The notes beneath the pieces were generated by a model. It searched no databases. It had not been told where the DNA came from and was given only the letters and a program-made list of their open reading frames with translations. DNA of 64,000 nucleotides from Carallia brachiata. Its lineage: Eukaryota > Streptophyta > Magnoliopsida > Malpighiales > Rhizophoraceae. The stretch lies in contig JADCRB010000046.1 of NCBI GenBank assembly GCA_021464245.1, positions 3,297,214 through 3,361,213 on the forward strand, written 5' to 3'. The position numbers and the translations under genes are program-made. Below, one piece after another: positions 798-60,695 of the stretch (positions are counted from its first letter, which is position 1; every line of letters starts with the position of its first letter).

Positions 798-3700
798 TTA
801 GACATCCTGTTCTTCCAGATCATAAGAATATGTCAGGCCTGCAAGGCCATGAAGCAACCTAATGACATCAACAGTATCATCAAGATAGTATTTTGCCATG
901 CTTGGCTTCTGACCAACAGTGCAGGCAAACACTTCTGCTATGGCTGGCAATGAAGGATTGTGAACATGATTTTCAATACTCTCAAACATATCTTCATCCG
1001 AACGATCGTCCCCAATGCACAGCAGAAAATCTGGCGATTTGCCAGCAGTTCGCATGGTTGAAATAAGCTTTTCCACTGCCATGCCTTTGCTAACTCCCTG
1101 AAATTCACCAGAAAATACATGAACATTTTGCTCTAGGAAAACTTTGCAATCCATGAAAATATGGATAAAACAATTTGCCTGACGTATGCACATATAAAAA
1201 CCATAATTAAAACATCAGTAAACATATTACAACCTAAAATTTACATAATAAAGGACTTATGGAAGCATGCTTCTGTCACTCCTCAAAGAAATTCCATTGG
1301 TTTTACTTCTTCACATGCTCAAGAATGTTTTTCGAATTGAGAAGGCTTCAACTATAAAGCTATCAATTGACCTCCGTGCCAGATTTCAACTATCATTTTT
1401 TGGACTATCCATAAAAATCAAACAAAGCATGACCGGATATAACTGCAAAATGTATGATATTTCCCCTACCTGTGGTTTAACCTCAACAATGTGACTGCCC
1501 CTTTTAACAACCACAGGCTCATTAGCAAGCACATTCTCTAAGTGATCAAGAAGCTCCTTAGCCTGGCAGGAACCGAAGTGAGGGTCAGCTTCTTGATGAT
1601 GCCACACCATTGCACATTCTTTGTGCTCTATGAATGACCCATCAGTTGTTTCGGTATAAAGCTTCATTACAGGCTCCACTATCTTTTTCCATTGGCAATC
1701 TCTGGCCACCGAGCAGGTCTCCCATGCAGAATCCCTCGTCCACCTAAAATTTGGAAAACAAGAAACTGATGAATGAAACAAGATTACAACTAAAAGTCTT
1801 GAGTTACAAAGGCATCTTTTACCTAGTAAAGTAGCCGTGCTCAGCTGAGATACCCAATTTCTCGCATGGAGAGAACCACGTAGTCAAAGGATCCTTTCCT
1901 CTGCCACTAACAACAAAAACGACGTTCTTTGGATCACTACACAAGTGGTTTAATACCGAAATAACTTCGTTGCTAGGCGCTCTGTCAACAGATGCCTGTG
2001 GCATCACGGTGCCATCATAATCCAAAAGGATCAACCGGCTGTTTGTTTTGTTGTAAGCAGCAACGATCGGTTCCACTTCAAGTTTCCTGAAATTTGATCC
2101 CAAGGCAACAATTCTGAATCCCAAACCGAATCCAACATGCCAATACCTTTTGAGATAATGCTCTCCACAAGCCCTCTCGAGGTCTTGATCAAAACTCTTT
2201 GCCCAATAAGCAACATCATGGGAGCTAACATACTTATAATGCTTCTCATGCCGTAAATGTTTCTCTTCTTCCTTCATCACAATAGCCTTATACATGGCTT
2301 CAGCCACTGCATCTGTGTTCCACGGATTAACGCGAATTGCCCCACTGAGAGACGGCGAGCATCCAATGAATTCAGACACAATCAGAACGCTATTCTTCCG
2401 ATCCGAGTTCTCATTAGTCCCCAATGCGTTGTCTAAAACAGGGCTTCCCTGTCTGCATACGGTATACTTATAAGAGACCAAATTCATTCCATCCCTTACA
2501 GGAGTAACCACACAACATTCGGAAATAGCATAATATGCTGCTTTCTCTAGAGTACTAACCGGGCCATTGATAAAAACAATCGGATCATACCCTTCTTTAC
2601 CGTACTTTCGATTGATCTCTTCAGCAATAAGATTGCTCTCATCTTGAACGTCTTGCACATCCTTACCCCTACTCCTTGCAGGGTTCACAATCTGGACTAA
2701 TACCACTTTTCCTCTCAAATGCTGGTGTTCTTCCAAAAGCCTGCCCATTGCCATGAACTTCAAACTGATACCTTTAAACAAATCAAGATCATCCACTCCA
2801 ACCATGACGATTTTCCCCGCGAATTTCTCCTTCAATTCCTTGGCCTTATTAGCAGTCTCCTCCATTCTTAGAACAGATTCGAGCTGCCCCATGTGAATTC
2901 CCCCTGGCAATATCTTGATACTGACAGTTCTACCAAAATAATCCAGACCAATGTAACCCCTCTTGGACTCATAATCAAGACCCAACATCCTACTACAGCA
3001 AGACAAGAAATGCCTGGCGTAATCAAATGTATGGAACCCAACAAGATCACAATTCAAAAAGGCCCTCAAAATCTCCTCGCGCACCGGTATTGTCCTGTAA
3101 ATCTCGGATGAAGGAAAGGGACTGTGCAGAAAGAAACCGAGTTTGACCCTGTGATACCTTTTCCTCAAGAAAGTAGGCAAGATCATGAGATGATAGTCGT
3201 GCACCCAGACCGAATCCTCATCTGGGTTCAACACCTCGACAACCTTGTCCGCGAATTTCTTGTTGGCCGACACGTAGGCCTGCCACTGTGCCCGATCAAA
3301 CCGAGCAGAATTGCTCGGCGAAAAAGGCATCATGTAGTGAAACAATGGCCAGAGATAGTGCTTGCAGAATCCATGATAGAACATGTTCTGCAGATCAGCC
3401 GACAAGAAAACCGGCACGCATCTGAACTTATCGAACAACTCCTGGGAAACCTCCTGCCTGTCCTTCTCTTCAACGTCGGCCATTAAAGACCCGACGTACC
3501 AGACCTCCGTGCCGGAAGGGAACCCATCTTTCAGCTGCAAGTAAAGGTTGTCTTGGTCCAGCTCGAAGCACCACTTGCCGTCCTTCCACGACGCCCGTAT
3601 CGGAAGCTGGTTGGCCACGATGATCCGCCGTTCCTGCGAGGGAGGCGCCGCCCCGTCGTTGGACTCGGCGCTGCTGCTTCCACGAAAATCGCCGTCTTGG

Positions 3701-3807
3701 AATTCGGATATCACTCCACCAGGTGGCACTTTCATGACGCGGTTCAAGACGCGGAAATCGTCGACCGAGATCAGATTCAAGCACTCCATGCAAGAACTCG
3801 CTATCAT
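798..3807 (-). CDS. Class II trehalose-6-phosphate synthase/phosphatase-like protein (TPS8-11 type)
   Basis: Three coding exons are read on the minus strand: 3807-1823, 1743-1470 and 1097-798. The introns are 79 and 372 bp with GT-AG ends, giving 852 aa. The start is the ATG at 3807-3805; the in-frame codon further upstream is TTG. The protein has the class II layout. A GT20 glucosyltransferase domain runs from about residue 61 (RRIIVANQLP) to 545. A trehalose-phosphatase (HAD) domain follows, with LLDYDGT near 594-600, SGRGKDPL near 634 and GDDRSDEDMF near 782-791. Length and exon phases fit the family. Arabidopsis class II members (TPS5-11) are mostly regarded as regulatory trehalose-6-phosphate/SnRK1-linked proteins with weak or no synthase activity; that role is inferred here. 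No frameshift or premature stop is seen once the introns are removed. The start sequence resembles TPS8-10 (MxSxSC...LxL) and the GT domain resembles TPS11, so I do not assign a paralogue number. Confidence 0.96.
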
Positions 3808-3948
3808 GCTGAACAAGAAAGATTCTTTCTTTCTTTTATTTATTTATTTATTTATTACAAAGAAAGAATAAAAAAAGATCTATGTTTTACAAAACAAAGA
3901 AAATAACGGAAATCTAACAATGGGGATGTGATTGTACTGTTCTGAGGA

Positions 3949-15077: not shown

Positions 15078-15602
15078 CTACCATGTCCCAAATTCGTTTC
15101 TCCAGGCGGAACCCCATAATGGCCTATCCTCTAGCAGAGCTTCCACCTGCGGCCGAACTGGGGTCCTGCAAATGGGACAAGCAGGCACCTTTACGAGCCA
15201 CGGATCCACACATCTCCTGTGGAAAAGGTGGCCGCACCTTGAAAGCTTCCTGCACCATTGGCCCTGCCTAACTCCTTCTAAACAGACAACACAATCAGCG
15301 TCACCATCAGGTCTCAATCTCCTAGAATACCTGAATTGCGGCAGCTTCTTGAGGTCCTTGAAACAGAAGTCGTTAGGGGTAGTAAAACAGGCTGAGCGGC
15401 GGCGGTGGTGGAGGGCGGCGGTGGCGAGGATGAGGAGGATGGCGGCCACGCCGAGTAAAAGGAAGAAAAGGGTGGTTATAAAGGTCATTATCATGGCTTT
15501 TAGGATCAAAGATAGGAACTTTTGATTGGGTTTTGGCGGTGATCCACGGCCGCCATGTTGGCGGTGGTGGCGGTGGTGGTTAGGATCATCGTAAGAAGGC
15601 AT
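15078..15602 (-). CDS. RING-H2 finger protein, ATL family (ATL56-like)
   Basis: A single-exon frame encodes 174 aa. A His-rich N-terminus (residues 1-20) is followed by one hydrophobic membrane segment at about 33-64. A RING-H2 finger lies at 104-145 with ligands C104, C107, C123, H125, H128, C131, C142 and C145; the spacing is Cx2Cx15CxHx2Hx2Cx10Cx2C. W135 sits in the DPWL motif usual for ATL ligases. ATL proteins are membrane-anchored E3 ubiquitin ligases, often intronless and quickly induced by stress or elicitors. The stretch before and within the membrane segment (KPNQKFLSLILKAMIMT) reminds me of ATL56, but I have not verified this. The frame is clean and the start is the first ATG. A GA microsatellite about 125 bp upstream may lie in the promoter or leader. 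Confidence 0.93.
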   Translation of the reverse strand: MPSYDDPNHHRHHRQHGGRGSPPKPNQKFLSLILKAMIMTFITTLFFLLLGVAAILLILATAALHHRRRSACFTTPNDFCFKDLKKLPQFRYSRRLRPDGDADCVVCLEGVRQGQWCRKLSRCGHLFHRRCVDPWLVKVPACPICRTPVRPQVEALLEDRPLWGSAWRNEFGTW

Positions 15603-33826: not shown

Positions 33827-34917
33827 GAAGAACTTCAATTATTTAACCAGTATGCTACTGGATGCACAATGTAGTAATTCTGATACGGAAGAAACATGCC
33901 GTCAATTTCAAGAATAAAAAATTCTAAATTGATTGCCCGATTCGGGACAAGGCACCTAAGAGTTGTGCACAAGTCCAGAGAAAGATCAACCAATGAGGGG
34001 TGCTCCACCTGGCTTACGACCCGGATGCAACAATAATCAGCAGGTGAATAGAGATAATAAGCATTAGCCAAAAAAAAAAAAAAAAAAAGAATAAAGATAG
34101 TAAACCTGAGATAACTTGAGGTTTTATATAACATTAGCTAAATGACTGATTTAACACATCACCTTAAGAGAAACATGTTTAGTTCATAAGCATGAGAAGC
34201 ATGAGAAAATAAGCAAGAGATAACTTGAGGTTTTATAAAGGGAAAAAAATGATTGGAGAACGAAAATCCGTTCAAACTAACCACAATGCTTCATAATATC
34301 ACCAGTTAGGGAAACGTCGCATGCCGGCTTCTGAATACCCCACTGACCTGGGGCCAACTGATCTCTGTTTCAGTAAAGGAAGAGCTACTGTGCTAAACAA
34401 AGATTTGATCTTTCAATTAAACTAGAGATCTAAACTAAAACTAGAAAATCTTAGAAGTTATCATTCGTGGGTATATAGAATTACAGATCTATACTTACGT
34501 TCTAAAACTGTCCAGAACTTAGAGAAATTCACTATTGAAAAGTCCATTTAATAACAATTAAGCAGTCTTCAGCCATAAAACAATCCCAGCAGCTATCCGC
34601 ACTGACCCATTGAAAAATATGCAAGAATACATCTCAGAAAGACTTAGTAGCCATTATAAATTATAATCGCCCGATGACATTTTTAAATCTTTGAAGACAT
34701 TTTTTTAGAAGACCAATCAAAGGCAAAAGCCATGATTTGTCCTGCCTTTATTTTAATTTCACTCTATCATCTCCGCAACATTGCTCTCCGGAGCCTCGCT
34801 AAACCATGCGCTATTCCCACCAAATAAACGAGATTCTGCATTATCTCATCTTAACCAATCGCCAGACTTGGGAATTGAGTTGAGTAGTGCAAAGCATGCA
34901 AAATTTGAGATCAGTTA

Positions 34918-34922
34918 CCATT
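34918..34922. repeat. Target-site duplication, left (CCATT)
   Basis: CCATT immediately before the 5' LTR equals CCATT at 44788-44792 immediately after the 3' LTR. A single CCATT is present at the empty paralogous site 60243-60247. Confidence 0.95.
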
Positions 34923-35617
34923 TGTAAACAAATAAATAAAAATAATAATAATAATAATAATAATGGTTGGCAGCTGCCAACCTTCAACCTTGAAGGTTGG
35001 CAGCTGCCAACCTTTGCCTTTAATGCCACCAACTAATTGGTTGGTGGTAGGCATGGGGGAGGCCTATAAATGGCCTCCCCCCAATTAGAAAGAGGCAGAA
35101 GCAGAGAGGAGCAGAAGAAGAAAAAGAAAAAAAAAAAAAAAGAGAAGCCAGCAGCGAAGCGCACAAGAAAAAAAAAAAAAGAGAAAAAAAAAAGAAAAAA
35201 AAAAAAGAGAGAGATAGTAAAAAAAAAAAAAATTGAAATATTACAAATCCGGCTGGGATTAAGCCTTATACGGCCCTCAGCAAAATCCAGGCAACTCATC
35301 CGAGAACAAGTCCATTCGACCCTCGGTGAAATTAAGTCAGATCAGCTCAGATCGACTCTCTACGGTTCCTAAACGTAGTCAAAACATCCAAATCAGACAC
35401 AGTTTCCAGTCTATCCAGTTCAAGAAAAAGCGGTGAAAATTATTTCTGTCCAGATCAAGCTCGTGCAGCCCTTGACGGAGTCAAAACAGGAACATTAATC
35501 GGAGGATCTACGGAGATCAACCCCACGTAAATTTTCTTTTACTTTACAATTTTTATTTGTAATTTATTTTTGTATTTTCGAGTTTAATTATTTTAGACTC
35601 GAAATTTACGCTTTACA
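34923..35617 (+). repeat. 5' LTR (695 bp)
   Basis: Starts TGTAAACA and ends GCTTTACA. A TATA box (CTATAAATGG, about 35064-35073) drives the element; a purine-rich leader with long A and GA runs follows. Compared with the 3' LTR it carries about 30 bp extra near 34975-35010, a doubled palindrome. Over the last 390 bp I count about seven substitutions and one 1-bp indel against the 3' LTR. Confidence 0.95.
34965..35012. repeat. Doubled 18-bp perfect palindrome in the 5' LTR
   Basis: GGTTGGCAGCTGCCAACC is its own reverse complement and occurs at 34965-34982 and 34995-35012, separated by 12 bp. The 3' LTR has only the left part of one unit (44164-44177). Close by, CCACCAACTAATTGGTTGGTGG (35020s-35040s) is another near-palindrome present in both LTRs. 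Confidence 0.9.
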
Positions 35618-35622
35618 AATTT

Positions 35623-35641
35623 TTGGCACGCTCGGTGGGAC
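35623..35641 (+). promoter_or_regulatory. Putative primer-binding site
   Basis: TTGGCACGCTCGGTGGGAC lies 5 bp inside the 5' LTR, where the tRNA primer anneals in LTR retrotransposons. It starts with TGG, complementary to the CCA end of a tRNA, after one T. I did not identify which tRNA. Confidence 0.7.
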
Positions 35642-35740
35642 AACTTCACCTCCCATCTCTTGTTCCTAAAAAAAAAAAAGAGGTAAAAGGGGAGCCGAGA
35701 AAAAAAAAAAAAAAAATTTACAGGTGTTCAGCACATCAAA

Positions 35741-36334
35741 TGGCACCGAAAAGGAGTACAACTGCTACCACAAAAAAGAAGGCAACGGCTCCATTGCCTG
35801 CATCAACTACCCTACCTGGGTACGCAGGTCCAGAAACCCGGGGACGGACACAATTTCTTGCCGTCCAAACCCGACAAAATGTCGAAATGGAGAGTCCACA
35901 GCTCGCACAACAGGATCTCTCCCCCTGACTCTCTTGCCGCATGGAGGAGTCGATCACCCACCCTGATCGAAATCGGGGGCAACACGACGAAGCCTGCTCA
36001 ACAAAATCCGACTCACACAGAAGAATCAGAAGAGTTTTCTCCACCAGTCTTTCCCGGAGCCTCATCTGTTGCCGTCATGATGACCAACACAACCAGCACA
36101 GAGGAAAGGATTTCAGAATTGGAGAACAAAATTTTACAGCTGATCAGAGTCGTGGAGGAAAAAGATCAACAGATCACAGCTCTCAAAGGAAAAGCCCCGA
36201 TTCAAGTTGATCCCGAAATCCGCGAGGAGCAACCATATCCACCCGGTTTCACTCCAGAAGCCACACCAGCCGACGTCTTCCCTGCAGAAAAGCGACCAGG
36301 TAGTTCTACACAGCTGCCACCCTCAATTCTATAG
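35741..36334 (+). pseudogene. Gag N-terminal region, frameshifted
   Basis: A frame opens at ATG 35741 (MAPKRSTTATTKKKATAPLP...) and stops at 35926-35928. The reading continues in another frame (35858-36334) with a heptad-like coiled-coil stretch, EERISELENKILQLIRVVEE, and a proline-rich part, then stops. The downstream gag frame starts at 36461. At least two frame breaks therefore separate the N-terminus from the main gag domain. The assignment rests on position and on resemblance to the N-terminal part of Tat-type gag. Confidence 0.6.
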
Positions 36335-36460
36335 CTTCGCTATCTGTTCAACAATTGCAGGAAATGATAGCCAATACGATCCGACTGCAACAAGCTACAT
36401 CCTTCCAAGGATCGCAGATGTACGTCAAAACCGTACACCAGACGGATCGAAAGTCTCAAC

Positions 36461-37834
36461 ATGCCCTTGGGCTACCAGCCGCCCAAATTTCAACAATTCG
36501 ACGGACGAGGCGATCCCAAACAGCACATCGCCCACTTCGTTGAAACCTGCAACAACGCAGGGACTTACGGAGATCTCTTGGTGAAACAGTTTGTTCGTTC
36601 ACTCAGGGAGACTGCCTTCACCTGGTTCATAAATCTTGAACCAGAATCGATCGACAGTTGGGAACAGCTACAACGAGAGTTCCTCAACAGATTTTTCAGC
36701 ACTCGAAGGACGGTAAGTATGATGGAGCTTACCAGCACCAAACAAAGAAAAGGAGAGCCCGTTGTCGAATACATCAACAGATGGCGTGCCCTCAGCTTGG
36801 ATTGCAAAGATCGTCTGACAGAGACTTCTGCCGTAGAGATGTGCATCCAGGGAATGCATTGGGAGCTGTTATACATCCTGCAGGGTGTCAAACCCCGAAC
36901 TTTCGAAGAACTGGCGACCCGCGCACATGATATGGAGATAAGCATCCAGACTTCCGGAGGCACGGTTCCCATCCAGTTGGACCAGCAAGGGGGCAGAAGG
37001 GAGATTAAGAAACCCAACAGCTCTGGAAAAGGGAAAGAAGTGATGACTGTTGAAGCCGCACCAGTAAAAGTGGGCGCCAAAGCTAAGGTAAATCCTCCGA
37101 CCCAAATAACTCAGCCAAAACAACAGGAAAGGCGGAAGGTGACATTGCGAGAGCTGGAGCAGAAGCAGTATCCATTCCCCGACTCAGACGTCCCCGACAT
37201 TCTTGAACAGCTCTTGGAGGCAAAGCTGATCGAACTCCCAGAGTGCAAGCGGCCGAATGAAAAGGATCGAGTCAGCGATCCGAGGTTCTGCAAATATCAC
37301 CGGATAGTAAGTCATCCGACGGAGAAGTGTTTCGTCTTGAAGGAGCTAATCATGAAGCTCAAGAGCCAGAATAAAATCATTCTGGACCAAGAAGGCGTAA
37401 CCTCGGCAAACCAAACCACCATCACTTCAAAACCATCAGAAGAAGTGACACACCATAAGGAGGAGCCGCTCGACAACAAAAAGTCGACAACGGAGAAGGT
37501 ATATGAAGCTCTCCAAACCCTTCTCGCTAACCCTCAGCTGTTTATAGCTCTGCAACCAACAGAAGTGTGGCAAAATCAAGTCAGCAATACTCTTCAGACC
37601 TCAGCTGAATCACAGCCATCAAATGAGTCTAACTCAGCGGAGCAACAGGCGGACCAAAATCACGTCGGATGTTACTCTGCTATCTCATTTTCAGATGAGG
37701 ATCTCCTGCTGGGGTCCAAACCCCACAATCGGCCGCTGTATGTATTAGGCTATGTGAAAGAACAGAAGGTTCGACGTATTCTGATCGACGATGGCTCGGC
37801 ATCGGCATTGATGAATTATCAGACAGCCGCTTGA
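36461..37834 (+). CDS. Retrotransposon gag, into protease
   Basis: A 457-codon open frame. Residues about 1-160 form the gag domain (YQPPKFQQFDGRGDPKQHIA, FVRSLRETAFTWFINLEP, LQREFLNRFF, RWRALSLDCKDRL). Around 260-290 is the nucleocapsid-like segment FCKYHRIVSHPTEKCFVLKE with a C-x2-H...H-x4-C arrangement. The frame ends in the start of the aspartic protease, RRILIDDGSASALMN, then breaks. Gag packages the element's RNA in virus-like particles in the cytoplasm. Its frame is open over 1.37 kb but joined to neither the N-terminal gag part nor pol. Confidence 0.85.
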   Translation: MPLGYQPPKFQQFDGRGDPKQHIAHFVETCNNAGTYGDLLVKQFVRSLRETAFTWFINLEPESIDSWEQLQREFLNRFFSTRRTVSMMELTSTKQRKGEPVVEYINRWRALSLDCKDRLTETSAVEMCIQGMHWELLYILQGVKPRTFEELATRAHDMEISIQTSGGTVPIQLDQQGGRREIKKPNSSGKGKEVMTVEAAPVKVGAKAKVNPPTQITQPKQQERRKVTLRELEQKQYPFPDSDVPDILEQLLEAKLIELPECKRPNEKDRVSDPRFCKYHRIVSHPTEKCFVLKELIMKLKSQNKIILDQEGVTSANQTTITSKPSEEVTHHKEEPLDNKKSTTEKVYEALQTLLANPQLFIALQPTEVWQNQVSNTLQTSAESQPSNESNSAEQQADQNHVGCYSAISFSDEDLLLGSKPHNRPLYVLGYVKEQKVRRILIDDGSASALMNYQTAA

Positions 37835-38409
37835 TGATTCATGGTTTTAATCAAGGTGGACAGAAAGCAATTGGGATGATTCGCTTGGAGCTATCTAGTA
37901 ATCTCAATTCTAGCACTCTATTTCACGTGATTGATGCACGTACCACATATAAGATGTTGCTAGGACGACCGTGGATTCATGGAAATGGAGTTGTGCTCTC
38001 AAGCTTACATCAGTGTTTCAAGTACTACAATGGTGGCGTTCAAAAGGTCAATGCTGACTTAAAGCCGTTCGATGATGCTGAATCACATTTGGCGGATGCA
38101 GTCTTCTACACTGACACAGACAATCCGGAGATCATTCCGTCAAAAGCTACTTGGACTGGGGGCATCCACAAAAAGGGAAAAGCTGTCGAAGAACCTGCCA
38201 ATGCCCAACCCCAGGCTCCAACAAATGAAAAGCTGCCACAGCCTGCTGAACTTCGTCCGAAGGATGTTGCATCTTCAAGCTCCACTCCAGTCCTACGCTA
38301 TGTGCCAAGTCACGACGCTCAGAAGGTCAACCCCCTTTCTCTTATTGTATTGATCTTAAACAGGAGCAAGGTCATAGCCAACCCAAAACAAAGGAGCTGC
38401 ACAACCTGA
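37770..38409 (+). pseudogene. Aspartic protease region, frameshifted
   Basis: The active-site segment ILIDDGSA (near 37777-37800) is followed by a frame change. The next frame (37831-38409) continues with LMIHGFNQGGQKAIGMIRLE, DARTTYKMLLGRPWIHG and HQCFKYYNGG, the usual flap and C-terminal parts of Tat-type proteases. Some residues normally between the active site and the flap are missing. The protease would cut the gag-pol precursor; here it cannot be made in one piece. Confidence 0.75.
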
Positions 38410-38450
38410 AGGAGACTTACACTCTGCCGATACCAAAGATTGAGCCGGTT

Positions 38451-40340
38451 TTGTCTTCAAAACCATTAAAAGGCTTCGTCAAACCACACACGGGGGCAGT
38501 CGAAGGCGGCTCACTTCCAGAAAGAAGAACAAAGGAAGGATTCGATCCTAATGCATACAAGCTTTTGGCAAAGGCGGGCTATGACTTTTCAAACCCGAGC
38601 ACAATGGGTACGCTGCCGTCCACACATGGCGCCGCTTCTCAAACATCACAGTCCCGACCTGGCTTAGGCTATCAGGAGAAGTCACCTGTGCGGATCACGC
38701 TAAAGAGCCGAAGCCGAGCAGCTGATGCACGTGCCATCACCACCACCACCAAACAGGACAGGCTTATCCAGTCAAACAAAGAAGGTGAAGTCAGAGGTTC
38801 CACATTTCATGTCACAATTAGCGAGGAGGCTGAGTCTGACTCATCAGATGGTGAAGTGAAGGAGGCTCCCCCGGAACTTGAAGATGGTGGCCAAGCAACT
38901 GTTGATGAACTCAAGGAGGTCAATCTTGGCTCTCCGGAAGATCCTCGACCTACATTTGTAAGTGCTTTACTTACTGCAGAAGAAGAGCAAGAATATGTTC
39001 AGGTATTAAGTCAATACAGGGACGTGTTCGCATGGAGTTACAAAGAAATGCCTGGACTTGACCCGAAAATTGCGGTGCATCGTCTAGCAGTAAAGAAGGG
39101 TGTCCGTTCTGTCAAGCAGCCACAACGACGGTTCCGCCCGGAACTCATTCCACAAATCGAGGAGGAGGTGAACAAGCTGATCAATGCCGGCTTCATCCGA
39201 GAGGTCACCTACCCAACGTGGATTGCCAACATTGTCCCAGTAAGAAGAAGAATGGACAGTTGAGGGTATGTGTTGATTTTCGAGATCTTAACAAGGCCTG
39301 CCCGAAAGATGACTTTCCATTGCCCATAACGGAGATCACAGTCGATGCAACAACGGGTCACGAAGCATTGTCTTCATGGATGGTTCTTCAGGCTATAACC
39401 AAATCAGAATGGCACCAGAAGACGAGGAGTTGACAGCATTCCGCACCCCAAAAGGTATATACTGCTACAAAGTTATGCCGTTTGGATTGAAAAATGCTGG
39501 CGCCACTTATCAACGTGCTATGCAAAAAATTTTTGATGACATGCTGCACAAGATTGTAGAATGTTATGTTGATGACTTAGTTGTAAAGACTAAGAAGCGC
39601 AAAGACCACCTCGAGGATCTCAAGACAGTGTTCGAAAGACTTCGGAGGCATCAGCTCAAAATGAACCCTCTCAAGTGCGCATTCGGTGTCACATCAGGAA
39701 AGTTTCTTGGGTTCGTGGTGCGCCATCGTGGAATCGAAGTTGATCAGTCAAAGGTTGAGGCAATTCAAAAGATGCCTGAACCTAAAAACCTGCACGAGCT
39801 GCGAAGTCTACAAGGAAAGCTAGCCTACATTCGCCGTTTCATCTCCAATTTAGCGGGAGATTCAACCTTTCCATCGGTTGATGAAGAAGGATGTCAACTT
39901 CGAGTGGGACGAAGCTTGCAGCAAAGCCTTTGAGAGCATAAAGAAGTACCTTTCAAATCCACCAGTCCTGGGAGCTCCAATTCAAGGAAAGTCGTTGATT
40001 CTCTACATTGCAGCGCAGGAAAGATCTTTGGGAGCCTTGCTTGCACAGGAAAATGAGCAGGGAAAGGAAGTTGCTCTGTACTACTTGAGCAGAACACTAA
40101 ATGGTCCGGAAGCTGAGTTATTCACCCATTAAAAAGACATGTCTAGCATTGTTCTTTGCCATTGACAAACTGAGGCACTACATGCAAGCTCACACGGTAC
40201 GTCTCATTGCCAGAGCTGATCCTGTCAAATATATCTTATCCAGACCAATCTTGTCAGGACGACTTGCCAAGTGGGCAGTAATCCTACAAAGCTACGACAT
40301 TGTCACGTGCCTCAAAAAGCAGTCAAAGGACAAGCTCTAG
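38451..40340 (+). pseudogene. Reverse transcriptase and RNase H, several frameshifts
   Basis: Frames 38451-39263, 39218-39433, 39376-39933, 39878-40132 and 40101-40340 together cover reverse transcriptase and its RNase H. Landmarks are PELIPQIEEEVNKLINAGFI, RVCVDFRDLNKACPKDDFPL, SSGYNQIRMAPEDEELTAFR, MPFGLKNAGATYQRAM and the catalytic YVDD in ECYVDDLVVKTK (about 39560). GKFLGFVVRHRGIEVD and a connection/RNase H part (ALYYLSRTLNGPEAEL, LRHYMQAHTVRLIARADP) follow. Each join needs a frame change, at least four in 1.9 kb. The domain order fits Ty3/gypsy. Confidence 0.88.
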
Positions 40341-42070
40341 CAGACTTCCTTGCAGATCACCTTGTTCCGTCCGATTGGGAGTTCACAGATGATCTTCCAG
40401 ATGAAGAGGTCTTTTACATTGAGACACTGCCACCATGGACGATGTTCTTTGATGGTGCAGCAAGGCGTGATGGTGCTGGTGCCGGTATAGTGTTTGTCAC
40501 CCCTCAACGACAAATACTACCATATGCTATCATTCTCGGTGAGTTATGTTCAAATAATGTTGCTGAATACCAGGCTTTGATCATTGGTCTTCAAATGGCT
40601 GTCGATATGAAGATTCCAACTATAGAAGTCCATGGAGATTCCCAGCTCGTCATCAACCAACTTACAGGATTGTATGACGTGAAGAAAGAGGACCTTGCGC
40701 CTTACCATCAACGTGCTCGACAGCTAATGGATGAATTTGAAAGCATCACCTTGGAGCATGTGCCTCGACGAGAAAACACTCAGGCAGACGCGTTGGCTAA
40801 CCTGGCTACTTCTCTTGCAAAGTCAGAAATCCAGACTACAGTTGTTGCTGTATGTCAGAAATGGATAGTTCCGCAGAAGGATGATGAAGAAATTACAGCA
40901 GCCAACGCTGTATCTATACGTCTCGCGGAGGACGAAGATTGGCGCCAACCAATCATTGACTATCTACAGCACGGGAAGCTGCCTGAAGATCGTCGTCATA
41001 AGACAGAAATTCAACGACGAGCTCCCCGGTTCATATACCTCAAGAATGCTCTGTATCGAAGGTCTTTTGATGGAGTTCTACTTCGCTGCCTAGCCAATGA
41101 AGAAGCAAAACAGGCTCTCACTGAAGCACATTCTGAGTTTGCTAAAACTTGTCAAGCTTGTCAATTTCATGCCAATTACATACATCAACCACCGGAGCCA
41201 CTGCATCCAACTGTCTCATCATGGCCCTTTGAAGCTTGGGGTCTCGACTTAGTGGGGCCCTTGCCAAAGTCATCCCTGGGTCACCTGTACATCCTTGCAG
41301 CAACCGACTACTTCTCAAAATGGGCTGAAGCCATTCCACTTAGAGAGGTAAAGAAGGAGCATGTTGCCAATTTCATCCGGACTCAGCTGATCTATCGCTA
41401 TGGAGTCCCTCGATTCATCATCACTGATAATGGTAAGCAGTTCTACAACAGCTTAATCGACAAGCTCTGCGAGAAGTTCAAGTTCAAGCAGTACAAGTCA
41501 TCCATGTACAATGCCCCAGCAAATGGCTTGGCCGAAGCATTCAACAAGACCTTATGCAACCTGTTGCGGAAGGTAGTCTCTAAATCCAAAAGAGATTGGC
41601 ATGACAGAATTCCGGAGGCATTATGGGCGTATCGTACAACTTACCGGACTCCAACACAGGCGACGCCATACTCACTTGTCTACGGTGTCGAAGCAATACT
41701 GCCGTTGGAAACACAGATTCCATCCCTGCGCATGGCTGTTCTGGAAGGACTCACACAGGAGGAGAATGCTCGCCTACGTCTGGATGAGTTAGAAGCCCTT
41801 GATGAAAGGAGGCTCGAAGCACAACAACAACTTGAGTGCTACCAAGCCCGGCTCACCAACACATTCAACCGCAGGGTCCGCCCTCGATCTTTTCAAGTTG
41901 GAGACCTTGTTCTTGCAGTGCGACGGCCCATCAACATGAAGCATCGGCCTGGTGACAAGCTTACTTCCAAATGGGACGGGCCATACCTAGTGCAGGAGGC
42001 CTACTCACAACGCTTACATGCTGTCAGACCAAGAAGGTCCGAATCGGCCCAATCAATGGTAAATTTCTGA
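40271..42070 (+). CDS. Second (plant-type) RNase H and integrase, single open frame
   Basis: A 599-codon frame. Residues about 55-190 form an additional RNase H of the archaeal/plant type (MFFDGAARRDGAGAGIVF, NNVAEYQALIIGLQMAVDM, IEVHGDSQLVINQLTG, NTQADALANLAT), a hallmark of Tat-like elements. The integrase follows. EAHSEFAKTCQACQFHAN retains the CC half of the HHCC zinc finger, but the HH half and the linker before it are deleted. The core has DLVGPLPKSSLGHLYILAA, ITDNGKQF and a downstream E in NGLAEAFNKT for the DDE triad. The C-terminal part shows KWDGPYLVQEAY. Integrase inserts the cDNA into chromosomes. The missing zinc-finger half probably disables it although the frame is open. Confidence 0.88.
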   Translation: MGSNPTKLRHCHVPQKAVKGQALADFLADHLVPSDWEFTDDLPDEEVFYIETLPPWTMFFDGAARRDGAGAGIVFVTPQRQILPYAIILGELCSNNVAEYQALIIGLQMAVDMKIPTIEVHGDSQLVINQLTGLYDVKKEDLAPYHQRARQLMDEFESITLEHVPRRENTQADALANLATSLAKSEIQTTVVAVCQKWIVPQKDDEEITAANAVSIRLAEDEDWRQPIIDYLQHGKLPEDRRHKTEIQRRAPRFIYLKNALYRRSFDGVLLRCLANEEAKQALTEAHSEFAKTCQACQFHANYIHQPPEPLHPTVSSWPFEAWGLDLVGPLPKSSLGHLYILAATDYFSKWAEAIPLREVKKEHVANFIRTQLIYRYGVPRFIITDNGKQFYNSLIDKLCEKFKFKQYKSSMYNAPANGLAEAFNKTLCNLLRKVVSKSKRDWHDRIPEALWAYRTTYRTPTQATPYSLVYGVEAILPLETQIPSLRMAVLEGLTQEENARLRLDELEALDERRLEAQQQLECYQARLTNTFNRRVRPRSFQVGDLVLAVRRPINMKHRPGDKLTSKWDGPYLVQEAYSQRLHAVRPRRSESAQSMVNF

Positions 42071-42087
42071 AACAATTATGTGTAAAT

Positions 42088-42460
42088 ATGTTTAAAAAAA
42101 AAAATAAAAAAAAAATCAAAAAAAAAAAGAAAAAAAATCAAAAAAAAATCAAAAAAAAAATCAAAAAAAAAAAAAAAAGTTCGGAAGTCCCGATCTGAAA
42201 GTCCAAGCGAAAACCCAAATCCAAAAGTCCAAGTTCAAAACCCAAACACTTGAGCCCAAACTCAAAACCCAACTCAAAAGCCTGAAAACCAAATCCAAAA
42301 GTCCAAGTCCAAAGCCCAAACACTCGACCCAAGTCCAAAAATCCAAGTCTAGAAGCCCAAACACTCGACCCAAATCCAATCCAAAGCCCAAAACCCAAAA
42401 ATTCCAAGTTCCAAACACAGTCCAGAACCCAAGTTCAAAATCCAATCCAACTCCTGGCCC
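42088..42460. repeat. A-rich tract and degenerate AAGTCCAAA-type tandem repeat
   Basis: 42088-42178 is almost only A with a few T, C and G. 42190-42450 consists of irregular repeats around CAAAAGTCCAAGT, AAGCCCAAACACT and CGACCCAAGTCC. Open frames here on the minus strand are low-complexity shadows. Function unknown; it forms the boundary between pol and the accessory ORF. Confidence 0.8.
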
Positions 42461-42491
42461 GCATGAGTATAAACTGTGAACGGCCCAAAAA

Positions 42492-42498
42492 TATAAAA
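42492..42498 (+). promoter_or_regulatory. TATA-like element before the WOX ORF
   Basis: TATAAAA lies 96 bp upstream of the WOX start codon, outside the LTRs. It could allow transcription independent of the LTR. A short upstream ATG at 42463 in another frame lies before it. The call rests on a single short motif. Confidence 0.3.
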
Positions 42499-42587
42499 CA
42501 GACGGAGGGTTTGATTCTGAAAGTCAGCATCAGTCTCAACCGATCTTCACCACATACCAAGACCTTTGCTCCTCTGCCGCAAGAAAG

Positions 42588-43232
42588 ATGGAACCAGTTG
42601 CAGAACCTCAAGACAAGGGAGAAGAAAGGTCACCTCGCACAAGGTGGCAACCGACCATGGCACAACTGCAAATTTTGGAGGAAGTCTTCTACAACGATGG
42701 AGGTATTGTCCCTAACTCTACACAGATTCTCCAACTTGTCTCACGACTTCGCCCGCTAGGGGCAGTCGAAGGAAAAAATGTATATTTTTGGTTCCAGAAT
42801 CGGAGACATAGGGAAACAGTGGCGCTGAGAGATGGTATTTCCAAAGCACAGCCTGTTGTTCCTATAGTAGATCTCACCAGTACAGCTTCACCCTCAAATG
42901 AAGCCGGCCCAAGTTCTACCACTGCAATGGTCTCTCCACGGTACGTTCATCAAAGCCGTAGCCTATGGGAGCATACATACTGGTCCTGGTGGTTTCACGG
43001 AGTCAGCCAAGGGTTCATCCCTCCTAGATACTTAAGTCTAGGAGGAATTTTTCTAGCACACAGGAGTCATTCCGGCGAAATTTTGCCTCTCTTTCCAGAA
43101 TATTCCGGCAGCATCAACCAGCCGGAAAGCGACGTCAACATCATCGGCCCACCAGACGAGGTCGAGCTTGACTTGGAGTGCACCTCGGGCCCCGCTAGGA
43201 CGGCCGACAAGATAAGGTGCAACGACTTCTGA
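42588..43232 (+). CDS. WUSCHEL-related homeobox (WOX) protein encoded inside the retrotransposon
   Basis: An uninterrupted 214-codon frame with a good start context (AAGAAAGATGG). Residues 18-77 align without gaps to the 60-residue core of the WUS-type homeodomain. Positions include R19-W20, P22-T23, Q26, I29-L30, Y35-N36, P42, Q46-I47, R53-L54-R55, G58, the WOX signature E61-G62-K63-N64-V65 and the invariant W68-F69-Q70-N71. Residues 165-170 read ILPLFP, matching the WUS-box (TLxLFP) of the WUS clade. A weak ELDLE motif at 193-197 could be an EAR-like remnant. WOX proteins are nuclear DNA-binding regulators of stem cells and organ formation. The recognition helix differs from host WUS (NRRHRE instead of the usual NHKARE), so target choice may differ. 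No intron is needed. The ORF sits 518 bp after the integrase stop. It could be a captured host gene or a lineage-specific element gene. Confidence 0.9.
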   Translation: MEPVAEPQDKGEERSPRTRWQPTMAQLQILEEVFYNDGGIVPNSTQILQLVSRLRPLGAVEGKNVYFWFQNRRHRETVALRDGISKAQPVVPIVDLTSTASPSNEAGPSSTTAMVSPRYVHQSRSLWEHTYWSWWFHGVSQGFIPPRYLSLGGIFLAHRSHSGEILPLFPEYSGSINQPESDVNIIGPPDEVELDLECTSGPARTADKIRCNDF

Positions 43233-43304
43233 GCAACGCGGCAACGACTTCCGCAGCACACGGCAACGACTTCTGCCACACGGTAACGACTTTCGTGACA
43301 CGCG
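43219..43304. repeat. Tandem repeat of GCAACGACTTC units (20-22 bp)
   Basis: Units begin at 43219, 43241, 43263 and 43283 (periods 22, 22 and 20). The first unit encodes the last residues and stop of the WOX ORF (CNDF), so the array overlaps the ORF end and extends into its 3' side. Confidence 0.85.
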
Positions 43305-43387
43305 TCAGCCGCTGCCTCTTTTGTCTCTTATGCAGGAAAGGGACGTGGATGGCCCTACCCGATTCTGCATACCTTTTTTGACTTTTC

Positions 43388-43409
43388 AAAAAAAAAAAAA
43401 AAAAAAAAA
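43388..43409 (+). repeat. A22 tract downstream of the WOX ORF
   Basis: 22 consecutive A lie 155 bp after the WOX stop codon, on the coding strand. This is where the poly(A) tail of a captured mRNA would sit. A-runs are common elsewhere in this element, so chance is also possible. Confidence 0.6.
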
Positions 43410-44106
43410 CTCTTTATTATTTGTATATATATCCTGCATGCCCGAGTTGTAATATTCACCCCTCAGCTCTTCTTTCTCAAAAGAAAATGGCTAGTCTCTG
43501 CACTTGTCTCAGGAAGTTCTTCGATCAAGAAGTTGGAGGCGCGAGCTAGAAAAGAAGGAGTAGTCTTCCTCGAGGGATCCCTAACACCATCGGTGTCATG
43601 GAGTTCCAACTACTCTCCTTAGTTCACATCTACTACAGAGGGATGAGACGCTGCAATTATCCTAATCTTCCTTTGGATGCGGCGATGTACGGGGAAGTTC
43701 CAACTACTCTCCTTACGTCGAAGCAGACTTAGGAATCATCACTACAGTCAGTCTCTCTGTGTGCCGGTCTTGAGTTCCAAGGTCCTGGGCCTTCCTCTTG
43801 GGGAGGTTCAAGTTCTTTGCCTACTGGATCATACTCACCAGAGCTTTGGAACTTCAAAGAACCTTTGCCAGCCTTTGCCAGCCTGGAAGCTCGAACGCAC
43901 CTGGAGTCAAGACTTCAATTTCTATATTGGCTGGCGCTTGCTAACCTTCTTCAATATCATATCGGTTTCTATTGCGATCCAACAACAGCGACATGGTCAA
44001 AGATAGAAGACTCCAAGATTCAATGTTCATCAGGACTTTCCAAATTTCAAACTGGACTTCAAGACTCGGTTCGAATTATCTCTGTAAAAAATTTTCTTAC
44101 CGACCT
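43410..44106 (+). other. 3' untranslated region of the retrotransposon
   Basis: About 0.7 kb between the A22 tract and the polypurine tract. A TATATATAT-type motif lies at 43425-43434. Open frames up to 109 codons (43677-44006, 43817-44128) have no recognised motif. GTTCCAACTACTCTCCTTA occurs twice, at about 43604 and 43698, a small internal repeat. Confidence 0.5.
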
Positions 44107-44121
44107 GAAGTTGGGGGGGCA
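44107..44121 (+). promoter_or_regulatory. Polypurine tract
   Basis: GAAGTTGGGGGGGCA directly precedes the 3' LTR, the standard place and composition for the plus-strand DNA primer of LTR retrotransposons. Confidence 0.8.
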
Positions 44122-44123
44122 TT

Positions 44124-44787
44124 TGTAAACAAAAAATAAAAATACTAATATAATAATTAATAATGGTTGGCAGCTGCCCCTTTGCCTTAATGCCACCAAC
44201 CAATTGGTTGGTGCAGGCATGGGGGAGGCCTATAAATGACCTCCCCCCAATTTAGAAAGAGGCAGAAGAGAGAGGAGGAGCCAGAGAAGAAGAAAAAGAA
44301 AAAAAAAAAAAAAGAGAAGCCAGCAGCGAAGCGCACAAGAAAAAAAAAAAAAGAGAAAGAAAAAAGAAAAAAAAAAGAGGAGAGATAGTAAAAAAAAAAA
44401 AAATTGAAATATTACAAATCCGGCTGGGATTAAGCCTTATACGGCCCTCAGCAAAATCCAGGCAACTCATCCGAGAACAAGTCCATTCGACCCTCGGTGA
44501 AATTAAGTCAGATCAGCTCAGATCGACTCTCTACGGTTCCTAAACGTAGTCAAAACATCCAAATCAGACACAGTTTCAGTCTATCCAGTTCAAGAAAAAG
44601 CGGTGGAAATTATTTCTGTCCAGATCAAGCTCGTGCAGCCCTTGACGGAGTCAAAACAGGAACACTAATCGGAGGATCTACGAAAATCGACCTCACGTAA
44701 ATTTTCTTTTACTTTACAATTTTTATTTGTAATTTATTTTTGTATTTTCGAGTTTAATTGTTTTAGACTCGAAATTTACGCTTTACA
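44124..44787 (+). repeat. 3' LTR (664 bp)
   Basis: Matches the 5' LTR from TGTAAAC to CTTTACA. It has its own TATA box in GGCCTATAAATGACC (about 44228-44242). It lacks the second palindrome unit of the 5' LTR and differs by only a few substitutions otherwise, which indicates a fairly recent insertion. Confidence 0.95.
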
Positions 44788-45567
44788 CCATTCAAAGATT
44801 GATCCTCCTTGACACTCACCCTATTAAGTTCTTCAATAAGTTTCTACGCAATATTCGAGCATACATGCCAAAAAAGCAAACATTACTGCAAAGGAGAAAA
44901 ATACATAGATGCACAAAAATTAGATGTAGGAGTCGACACATTACAACTAATATTTTTTTTTTTCAACAAGATACTTTTTACAACAAAAAATGATAGTAAT
45001 TTTCATCTTTTTTTTTTTTATAAAAATTAAGTGTCTTATTGTAAAAACAAAGTTATTGGCTATAATATGTCTGTTTCGCATTCTACTTTTACACTCTATG
45101 TAATTAAACCCTACTGCAAGTCAGAATTAACCCATCTCTCTCTCTCTCTTTTAAAAAAAACAAAAGAACAATAAAGAAAAAAAGAAAAAAACTGAAACAA
45201 CTAGCTAGCTAAATGCTGAAGATTTGATCTAAAATCAAGAAATAAAATAATAGAAAAAAATAAAGTCGTTAAAAGGTAAAAAAAAAAAAAAGCGAGAAAC
45301 AGAAAATAGTACAGAGAGAAAAATGAAAGAGCGAAGTAACGACCGACCTAAGCTTGAACGGTTTCGATGCAGCGTCTAGAAAGAGGGACAAACAAACCTT
45401 TGCGGAAGCACATCAACGATAACCTTCGCATCGCTTCCTACTTTCATATTCTTGAATTGCAATTAAAACCCACCTCCGAGCGGTCAAAAAAATAATAATA
45501 AAGAAAGCAAGAAACTCACTTGGTTCCTAATAGGTTAGGATAGGGATTGCCAATTTAATTATTTAAG
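44788..45567. repeat. Block A, right part, starting with the right CCATT target duplication
   Basis: 44788-44792 is the right target duplication. The sequence then matches 60243-60695 (GATCCTCCTTGACACTCACC, AATATTCGAGCAT, GCAATTAAAACCCAC, GGTTCCTAAT, CCAATTTAATTATTTA). About 200 bp around 44900-45100 are specific to this copy. Non-coding. Confidence 0.75.
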
Positions 45568-58334: not shown

Positions 58335-60695
58335 AATGCCTGTTACAACAATCACAATCATGGAAATTACTTCAATCATTTAACCAGTACGCTTTTTTGG
58401 GTTTATTTATTTATTTTTTACAAGTATGATACTGGATTCACAATGTAGTAATTCTGATACAAAAGAAACACGCCATCAATTTCAAGAAAAAATATTTTCT
58501 AAATTGATTGCCTGATATGGGACAAGGCACCTAAGGGTAGAGCATAAGTCCAGAAGCAAAGATCAACCAAAGAGGGATACTCCACCTGGCTTACGACCAG
58601 GAAGCAACAATATTCAGCTGAGCTGGTCATTAGAGATAATAAGCATGTCGCATGATATAACTTGAGGTTTTATGTAACATTAGCTAAATGACCGATTTAA
58701 GACATCACCTTAAAAGAAACATATTTAGTTCATGATATTTTCACTACACGTTTCAACGTAACTCAAGGGTGCCTCAGGCTAGATTAAAGTAATAGAAGGC
58801 AAAACAGGCAGCTTAACAGTCAACAACAGATTCATATCTAAATGTTAGGAATACAGTTCTGATTGTTATGTGTGAATTGCCGCTAATGGTGTTGAACCAT
58901 CCAATAAAAGCCTGTAAAAAGTACTAAAAGCTAAAATTGCGATAATTGGGTACACTCTCATGAGATGTACCAATTGACAAATCATCTAACTTTCACATGT
59001 TTCAAGCAAAGCAAACAAGCCATCGGATTTGTGTAGAAGTTCCTAATCTATCAGTGGCAGCCTTAACTATCAGCATTAATCAGTCAGTCAAAAACAAAAT
59101 TTTCAAACCCAGACCGCAGCTTCTCTGCAATGAAAACATCTCATTTTACTTGAATGTATGGATACAAATGCCAACAGAAAAGAAACATAGTACCATTATA
59201 AACAAACCAGTAAGTCCTTCCTGTGGACAGCACCCCACAACCAGATACGTGCAAAGCAAAAAATGCACTCCACGGCATGCTGACCCAAATAATAAAAAAA
59301 GGCATTAAACTCCAAATCAAAACCCCTATTTAATTGCTCTTGAGTGCAATTTAGCACTTCTCAACAAACAGTCATTTCCCAATACAAAAAAAGGACCAGA
59401 GCCATTCTCCGGGGGCAAAGATAACATTGAATTTTTAATCTTCTTTGTCCAAAACTAAATAAAACTTTCCATGTAATGAACTACATTTCCAAATATGGTA
59501 ACACATCAAAAACTTTTTTTTTTTCCTGGTGGGCTAGGGGGCAGGTGAAGATAGTAAGCAATTCATTAGTCCCCTCTGAGATTCAAACATTTCATCAACG
59601 TAAAGTTTATGACGATAATGACAACTCATAAATCAAGATCCAAGCCATTTACAAACTTGTATATTTAGTGCTCAGAGATTTCTGCAAAAAAAGTCAACCC
59701 AACAAACCATCCAAATGTGTCAAATGAGGCACAACTCCTCACGGAAAAAACAGGACTAATAATGAGCACTTGCAGCATAATTTTCTCTGGTATATTTACA
59801 AAAACCATGTAAAAAGAACCCTACAGTGGAATATCCTCTTTCACAATAAAGAACTTTGATTTGTTAACTGTTGACATGTATTTGGTCCATATATAAAACA
59901 ATCCCAGCAGGTATCCGCATTGACCCATTGAAAAATATGCAAGCATACATCTCAGAAAGACTTAGCATCACTTATTATAAATTATAATCCCCCTATACCA
60001 TTTTTAAATCTTTGATGACATTTTTTTTGAAAAGACCAATCAAAGGCAAAAGCCAAGATTTGTCCTTCCTTTATTTTAATTTCACTCTACCATCTCCTCA
60101 ACATTCCTCTCTCGAGCCAGGCTAAACCATGCGCTATTCCCATCCAATAAAAAGGTGATTCTGCATTATCTCATCTTAACCAATCGTCAGAATTGGGAAT
60201 TGAGTTGAGAAGTGCAAAGAATGACAAATTTGCGACCAGTTACCATTCCAAGATCGATCCTCCTTGACACTCACCCTATTAAGTTCTTCATGATGTTTCT
60301 ACTCAATATTCGAGCATTATCTACGCCAAATACATGCCAAAAAAGCAAATATTACTGTAAATCAGAATCAACCCACTCTCTCTCTCTCTCTCTCTCTTTT
60401 TTTATTTAGAAAAAGAACAGTAACTGAAGAATTGAGCTAAAATCAAGAAATAAAATAATAGAAAAAAAAAATTAAGAGACAAAATAAAGAAGTTAAAAGG
60501 TTAAAAAAAAAAGCCCACTTTCACATTCTTAGGCTAGGAAATAAATTAAATTAGCTAAATGCTTTCATATTCTTGAATTGCAATTAAAACCCACTTTCTA
60601 ACGGTCAAAAAAAAAAAAACAAAATCAATAAAGCAAGAAACCCAATTGGTTCCTAATTCTATTAGGATAAGGATTACCAATTTAATTATTTATTT
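58335..60695. repeat. Block B, paralogue of block A and holder of two empty insertion sites
   Basis: It matches 32960-34922 plus 44788-45567 in the same orientation. Position 58362-58380 is the uninterrupted counterpart of the LINE-like insertion. 60233-60260 (CAGTTACCATTCCAAGATC) is the uninterrupted counterpart of the LTR retrotransposon, with one CCATT. The segment 58750-59890 is longer than in block A. Non-coding. Confidence 0.8.

Follow-up and report, generated by a model that had tools for sequence, protein, structure and literature searches.

We propose, with moderate confidence, that the open reading frame (ORF) at positions 42588–43232 of the window, the 64,000-nt stretch of Carallia brachiata DNA analysed here, is one copy of a WUSCHEL (WUS)-type gene resident in a family of Ty3/gypsy retrotransposons. 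The gene was likely captured from a spliced transcript, its homeodomain is under purifying selection, and its product, predicted to be a DNA-binding repressor, likely acts as an accessory regulator for the element.

The element that carries the ORF

The ORF lies within an element at 34923–44787, delimited by two LTRs on the + strand, at 34923–35617 (TGTAAACA...CTTTACA) and at 44124–44787, with a pairwise K2P of 0.0216. A 5-bp target-site duplication, CCATT, bounds it on both sides (34918–34922 and 44788–44792). All the features of a Ty3/gypsy element are present, in the gypsy order and on the + strand. A gag frame (36371–37834; Retrotrans_gag, PF03732, E 5.8e-15) is followed by one of the several frames among which the broken pol of this copy is divided, that of the reverse transcriptase (39313–39933; PF00078, E 6.8e-29 on 39376–39933), by a first RNase H divided between two frames (39854–40340; PF17919, E 9.5e-15; PF17917, E 2.5e-12), and by a second RNase H, of RVT_3 type, in a single frame with the integrase (40220–42070; PF13456, E 9.8e-25; PF00665, E 1.7e-10, on 40271–42070). 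Two RNase H domains, here of the PF17917/PF17919 and then the PF13456 type, are a mark of the Tat lineage. Downstream of the ORF, a polypurine tract region (44108–44123, +) precedes the 3′ LTR, the U3 of which belongs to a type that we label U1, the commonest among copies of ORF type A (see below). The sequence-only reading had placed the ORF between the integrase and the 3′ LTR of such an element, and this setting was borne out.

The element interrupts a repeat (34575–34922 and 44787–44898). The boundaries of the insertion are confirmed by an uninterrupted paralog of this repeat in the same window, at 59893–60367, with an empty site at about 60226–60265. The gag-pol of the window copy is broken and distributed over several frames; in other copies of the element, the open frame around the integrase match reaches 1,064 residues at most. 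Eight antisense ORFs of the window copy were scanned, and no Pfam match was found up to an E value of 0.1.

Repeats were seen on both sides of the ORF. Imperfect CCCAAGTCCAAA-type repeats, preceded by A-rich runs, occupy 42211–42389, between integrase and ORF, and a short GG[CT]AACGACTT-containing unit is found three times directly after the ORF, at 43240–43293 (starting at 43240, 43262 and 43282), in a number that apparently varies between copies. Elsewhere in the window, a RING-H2 gene of the host at 15078–15602 (− strand) shares 80% identity with a protein of Rhizophora mucronata and 63–67% with its next matches, from Hevea and Erythroxylum; it is ATL56-like by the names of its matches. Together with the grouping of host WUS (see below), this makes the host probably a member of the Rhizophoraceae. 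A long open frame at 1819–3816 (− strand) is presumably a host gene for trehalose-phosphate synthase. The segment 48450–57735 contains several consecutive kilobase-scale paralogous blocks, mostly 75–86% identical.

The ORF encodes a WUS-type homeodomain and a WUS box

Translation of 42588–43232 (+ strand) gives 214 residues, and none of 2000 single-base shuffles had a frame open as long. The Pfam Homeodomain profile matches residues 17–76 (E 2.9e-9; 37.1 bits, for a cut-off of 22.9). The homeodomain of Arabidopsis WUS aligns without gap over residues 16–78 (E 7.1e-16), and that of STENOFOLIA matches with an E value of 1.3e-13. From these alignments and the structural model, we place the homeodomain at residues 18–78 (42639–42821, +). 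In the AlphaFold model three helices lie within residues 24–81, with block pLDDT values of 85–95 at residues 21–80 and low values elsewhere, and the 11 top Foldseek matches of this model are all homeodomain chains of WUS or STENOFOLIA. A WUS-box-like ILPLFP is found at residues 165–170 (43080–43097, +). The open 214-codon frame, the gap-free WOX homeodomain and the WUS-box-like motif, all claimed from the letters of the sequence, are thus present. The claim on the frame needs one correction: the final ~17 residues of the window copy (43179–43229, +) are read in a shifted frame when compared with sibling copies, many of which have at this place an EAR-like motif that is absent from the window copy.

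The ORF is a family gene

The host genome (337.5 Mb, 164 contigs) was searched with the ORF and with the WUS homeodomain. From 2808 first-look candidates, at least 150 ORF matches were scored, at 76–100% identity. A stop was present inside the matched stretch in 125 of the 150, mostly a single TAG, and the other 25 had none. The homeodomain query returned nine host WOX loci, two WUS and seven other WOX (66–84% identity, measured to the Arabidopsis WUS homeodomain), and at least 141 further places at 52–58%. When both lists are combined, at least 261 distinct places are found besides the nine host loci, the extra ones being homeodomain matches only. Four such homeodomain-only places were opened (L058–L061), and each held an element-type ORF, broken in three of them. 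The ORF is therefore not restricted to the window copy, as the sequence-only reading had allowed it might be.

The setting of the ORF was inspected in 41 copies, namely the window copy and 40 fetched by ORF similarity; 24 of the 40 had been picked for having no listed stop, so that this set is uninformative on the share of intact copies. An integrase lies upstream, on the same strand, in 36 of the 41 copies, and no upstream integrase match was found in the other five. Downstream of the ORF, a pattern search detected a polypurine tract and LTR start in 40 of 41 copies. Starting from the integrase, 45 of 131 places had, within 1.5–1.7 kb on the downstream side, a listed match to the ORF or to the homeodomain (strand not compared). 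Twenty of the remaining 86 places, every fourth on the list, were opened, and in all 20 the ORF, or what frame shifts have left of it, begins 490–664 bases downstream. This integrase-selected sample comprised four A-like copies and 16 B-like or older ones, with the same ORF pattern as in the ORF-selected set; among the 12 of its copies that were read, most had stops or shifts inside the ORF. In seven copies other than that of the window, LTR K2P was 0.0033–0.0181 (measured on fetched LTR stretches, some partial). Given these low values, the family has been active recently.

The protein motifs recur across copies. ORF length was 203–209 aa in all 16 fetched copies listed with a TAG, most of which end in ...GPPDEVELDLELHLGPR, or close to it, an EAR-like motif. 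Similarly, DLEL[HR][LI]GPR ends 9 of the 10 copies chosen as canonical. By a strict pattern, the EAR-like end was found in 18 of the 41 copies, a sample rich in shifted tails. In the window copy and some others, the frame is shifted over the last residues of the ORF. The motif [TI]LPLFP was present in 38 of the 41, as TLPLFP in 19 and as the window's ILPLFP in 19, whereas three copies had neither form.

The homeodomain is under purifying selection

Two types of ORF were distinguished, A (GKNVYFWFQ, the window's type) and B (GKNVFYWFQ). Calculation of dN/dS between element copies had been suggested by the sequence-only reading; for the homeodomain, the pairs that were compared gave ratios well below 1. 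Integrase ratios are excluded, as frame shifts had spoiled the alignments. Pooled over 374 A×B pairs of 39 copies (two frame-shifted copies being excluded), dS was 0.41 and dN 0.13 in the homeodomain, a ratio of 0.32, compared to 0.59 for residues 79–160 and to 1.69 for the WUS-box stretch, where changes are few. Within type A, the ratios for the homeodomain and for residues 79–160 were 0.38 and 1.35, respectively, and within type B 0.13 and 0.68. Eight single pairs, which share copies and are non-independent, gave 0.04–0.43 for the homeodomain, with Fisher p<0.05 in seven of the eight, and 0.51–0.66 for residues 79–160, significant in none. This analysis shows purifying selection on the homeodomain of the element.

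Such values sit badly with passenger capture, in which a WUS-type retrogene would hitchhike with no benefit to the element and would be open mainly because the copies are young. Little time has been available for decay, as LTR K2P is only 0.0033–0.0216 in eight copies, older copies do carry stops and frame shifts, and residues 79–160 are without significant constraint. All this would suit a passenger, and yet a pooled homeodomain dS of 0.41 for a dN of 0.13, six synonymous changes to one non-synonymous in one within-B homeodomain pair, and the presence of the ORF or its remains at 20 of 20 integrase places make it, in our view, unlikely.

Origin of the gene

The two host WUS genes (C90 and C65) have three exons, read from open frames, which encode the homeodomain, the middle part, and the WUS box with the EAR motif, respectively. 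The element ORF, in contrast, consists of a single exon. Its lack of introns makes capture from a spliced transcript of the host probable.

A single-sequence search of 5.8 billion proteins with the ORF returned five matches: three proteins named WOX2, a hypothetical protein of Pistacia and an unnamed one. A profile made of ten element ORFs returned 443, of which the best 120 are of WUS type, named WUSCHEL or similar, or nameless. None of these best 120 is more than 51% identical to the query, and no close element-borne relative from another species is among them. No match was found in plasmids, phages and viral contigs. The distance between W and WF in the homeodomain was 48 residues in all 12 element copies tested, as it is in Arabidopsis WUS, in both host WUS and in each of the best 120 of the 443 profile matches, whereas it is 47 in the seven other host WOX, STENOFOLIA and the three WOX2.

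In a tree of homeodomains, the element copies form one clade (100/100) on a long stem. Its placement with WUS (p-AU 0.593), WOX1 (0.547), WOX2 (0.495), WOX4 (0.263) or WOX5 (0.139) was rejected in no case; WOX numbers other than WOX1 and WOX2 were assigned by us from sequence features. Host WUS groups with Erythroxylum (93/89, not a starred branch). The best tree puts the element clade beside a WOX3-like gene, with a support of 46/52, and the B-type homeodomain shares 59% amino-acid identity with the host WOX3-like gene, versus 53% with host WUS. The donor might thus have been another WUS-clade gene, such as WOX3, rather than WUS itself. We hold this to be improbable, as the homeodomain spacing is WUS-type, the best 120 of the 443 profile matches are WUS-type proteins, and the EAR-like end follows the WUS box as in host WUS; on the same three grounds we favour WUS as the donor. 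The WUS type attributed to the ORF by the sequence-only reading is thus upheld by the homeodomain match, the spacing and the WUS box, but the tree neither rejects a grouping with WUS nor favours it over other WOX.

Homeodomain types and LTR types

Differences between types A and B are unevenly distributed along the element. Compared to the window copy, 14 B-type copies were ~94–100% identical in the integrase bins and 93–98% in the leader, but only 77–93% over the ORF as far as two thirds of its length, and in U3 they align poorly. Fst between A and B peaked at 0.88–0.95 at 42700–42999, was 0.07–0.19 at 43100–43899 and rose again to 0.30–0.54 at 43900–44599, this second rise beginning ~200 bases before the 3′ LTR and running through U3. 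Diversities upstream of about 42400 are inflated by copies without that region. The pattern suggests that elements have exchanged modules, for which template switching may be the route.

Homeodomain type and U3 type were associated: 17 A copies had U1 and five another U3, whereas none of the B copies had U1 and 16 had another (Fisher p 1.0e-6; two recombinants and a copy in which no LTR was found are excluded). The pairing is not obligate, since each homeodomain type occurs on several U3 types, A on four and B on five. WUS motif patterns were sought in six U3 representatives of the LTR and no enrichment was found.

It is tempting to read the association as self-regulation, the protein binding the U3 of its own LTR and the two types co-evolving like a transposon anti-silencing factor and its target. 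The two regions where A and B differ, most in the ORF (42600–43050) and again from ~43900 through the LTR, with little in between, would fit such a pair, as would the Fisher test. We are nevertheless doubtful of it: the copies are non-independent and were chosen by ORF similarity, each homeodomain type tolerates several U3 types, the second rise starts ~200 bases before the LTR, and no WUS-type motif is enriched in U3.

Two further observations were made on these modules. At least six unlike U3 types are seen at the 3′ LTR starts (L009–L048) despite near-identical integrases, several with palindromes and most with CTATAAAT; such U3 diversity within one family looks as if promoters were swapped. 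When 42639–43070 was compared to the integrase-selected copies (L064–L083), four A-like copies had nearly the window's ORF sequence with different flanks, as if the module had spread recently.

Proposed role of the protein

The likely beneficiary of the protein is the element and not the plant. The protein would bind DNA by its homeodomain and, by analogy with WUS, would recruit TOPLESS-type corepressors through the WUS box and the EAR motif; passages of PMC4901127 on WUS biology and on these two motifs are the basis for predicting a TOPLESS-recruiting repressor. Made wherever the element is transcribed, it could repress host genes or tune the element's own LTR, and thereby bring about expression of the element in cells of the meristem or germ lineage; accessory proteins of retroviruses serve their virus in a comparable way. 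Between these two modes of action, we slightly prefer repression of host genes, in cells leading to the germ line, given that U3 shows no enrichment of WUS sites.

A bolder version, which we regard as possible though rather speculative, is that a retrotransposon lineage owns a stem-cell master regulator, acting on host genes or on its own LTR for access to the meristem and germ line, while elements would exchange homeodomain alleles and LTR promoter modules among themselves. If true, it would be a plant counterpart of the regulators captured by retroviruses. At the other extreme, it is most improbable that the gene works for the plant, either as a WOX gene of the host or as a gene domesticated from an element, in an element context that is incidental. 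The homeodomain is indeed of bona fide WOX type, but copies are many and dispersed, with integrase upstream (36/41) and polypurine tract and LTR start downstream (40/41), and the host has its own two WUS and seven other WOX loci, 66–84% identical to the Arabidopsis WUS homeodomain.

The family matters in two ways. Extra genes in plant retrotransposons are known, and the roles of most of them are not; as WUSCHEL biochemistry is well studied, the role of an accessory gene becomes testable. The family also illustrates a route by which a developmental regulator is multiplied many times within one genome.

Comparison with known systems

The element protein resembles WUSCHEL and the WOX family by its WUS-type spacing, its WUS box, the EAR-like end of sibling copies and the fold matches to WUS homeodomains, and it starts with MEP, as one host WUS does. 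It differs in that its homeodomain is only ~46–53% identical, with different residues around WFQN in helix 3, and in that the gene is intronless, multi-copy and inside an LTR element.

Among plant elements with extra genes, Retand elements have an antisense ORF, TRP28, between pol and the 3′ LTR, the product of which may bind DNA, according to the passages of PMC11963269 that describe it. The likeness lies in a Ty3/gypsy element with an extra, possibly DNA-binding ORF at the same place. In contrast, the homeodomain ORF found here is in sense orientation, and the region that holds it is ~2.05 kb in the window element, versus 2.9–6.6 kb in that report. An orchid Ty3/gypsy element with a functional AlkB demethylase ORF, and a B3 DNA-binding domain in Aegilops elements, are described in parts of PMC9289625, a survey of 121 genomes. 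The orchid element is likewise of gypsy type and has retained a captured host-type gene as an additional ORF, but this gene is an RNA demethylase and not a homeodomain protein. No word starting with homeo or WUS occurs in the main text of PMC9289625, and homeo-, WUS- or WOX- words are likewise absent from the main texts of three articles dealing with gene capture by plant elements or with their extra ORFs (PMC11963269, PMC7264820, PMC13317346).

From the literature searches on WOX genes in LTR elements, the one directly relevant text found was PMC10714607, a 2023 meeting report. In its passages on Vigna marina and V. riukiuensis, many WOX copies are reported, more than 1000 in V. riukiuensis, mostly between identical LTRs and with target-site duplications; what these copies contribute is described there as unknown. 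The resemblance is one of description: many WOX copies, LTR-flanked, with target duplications, in legumes instead of Malpighiales, and in passages silent on gag-pol and on which WOX gene is involved. The sequence-only reading had stated that it knew of no standard Tat/Retand gene of this kind, but LTR-flanked WOX amplification, as related in the passages on Vigna, is a precedent in kind. In the survey of PMC11963269, sense ORFs of the pol–3′ LTR region were without known domain. The capture of host-type regulators by plant LTR elements is already known in kind, and what is new here is a gag-pol element, three WUS-type motifs and measured selection. Taken with the passages on Vigna, it is a hint that WOX genes may be captured repeatedly.
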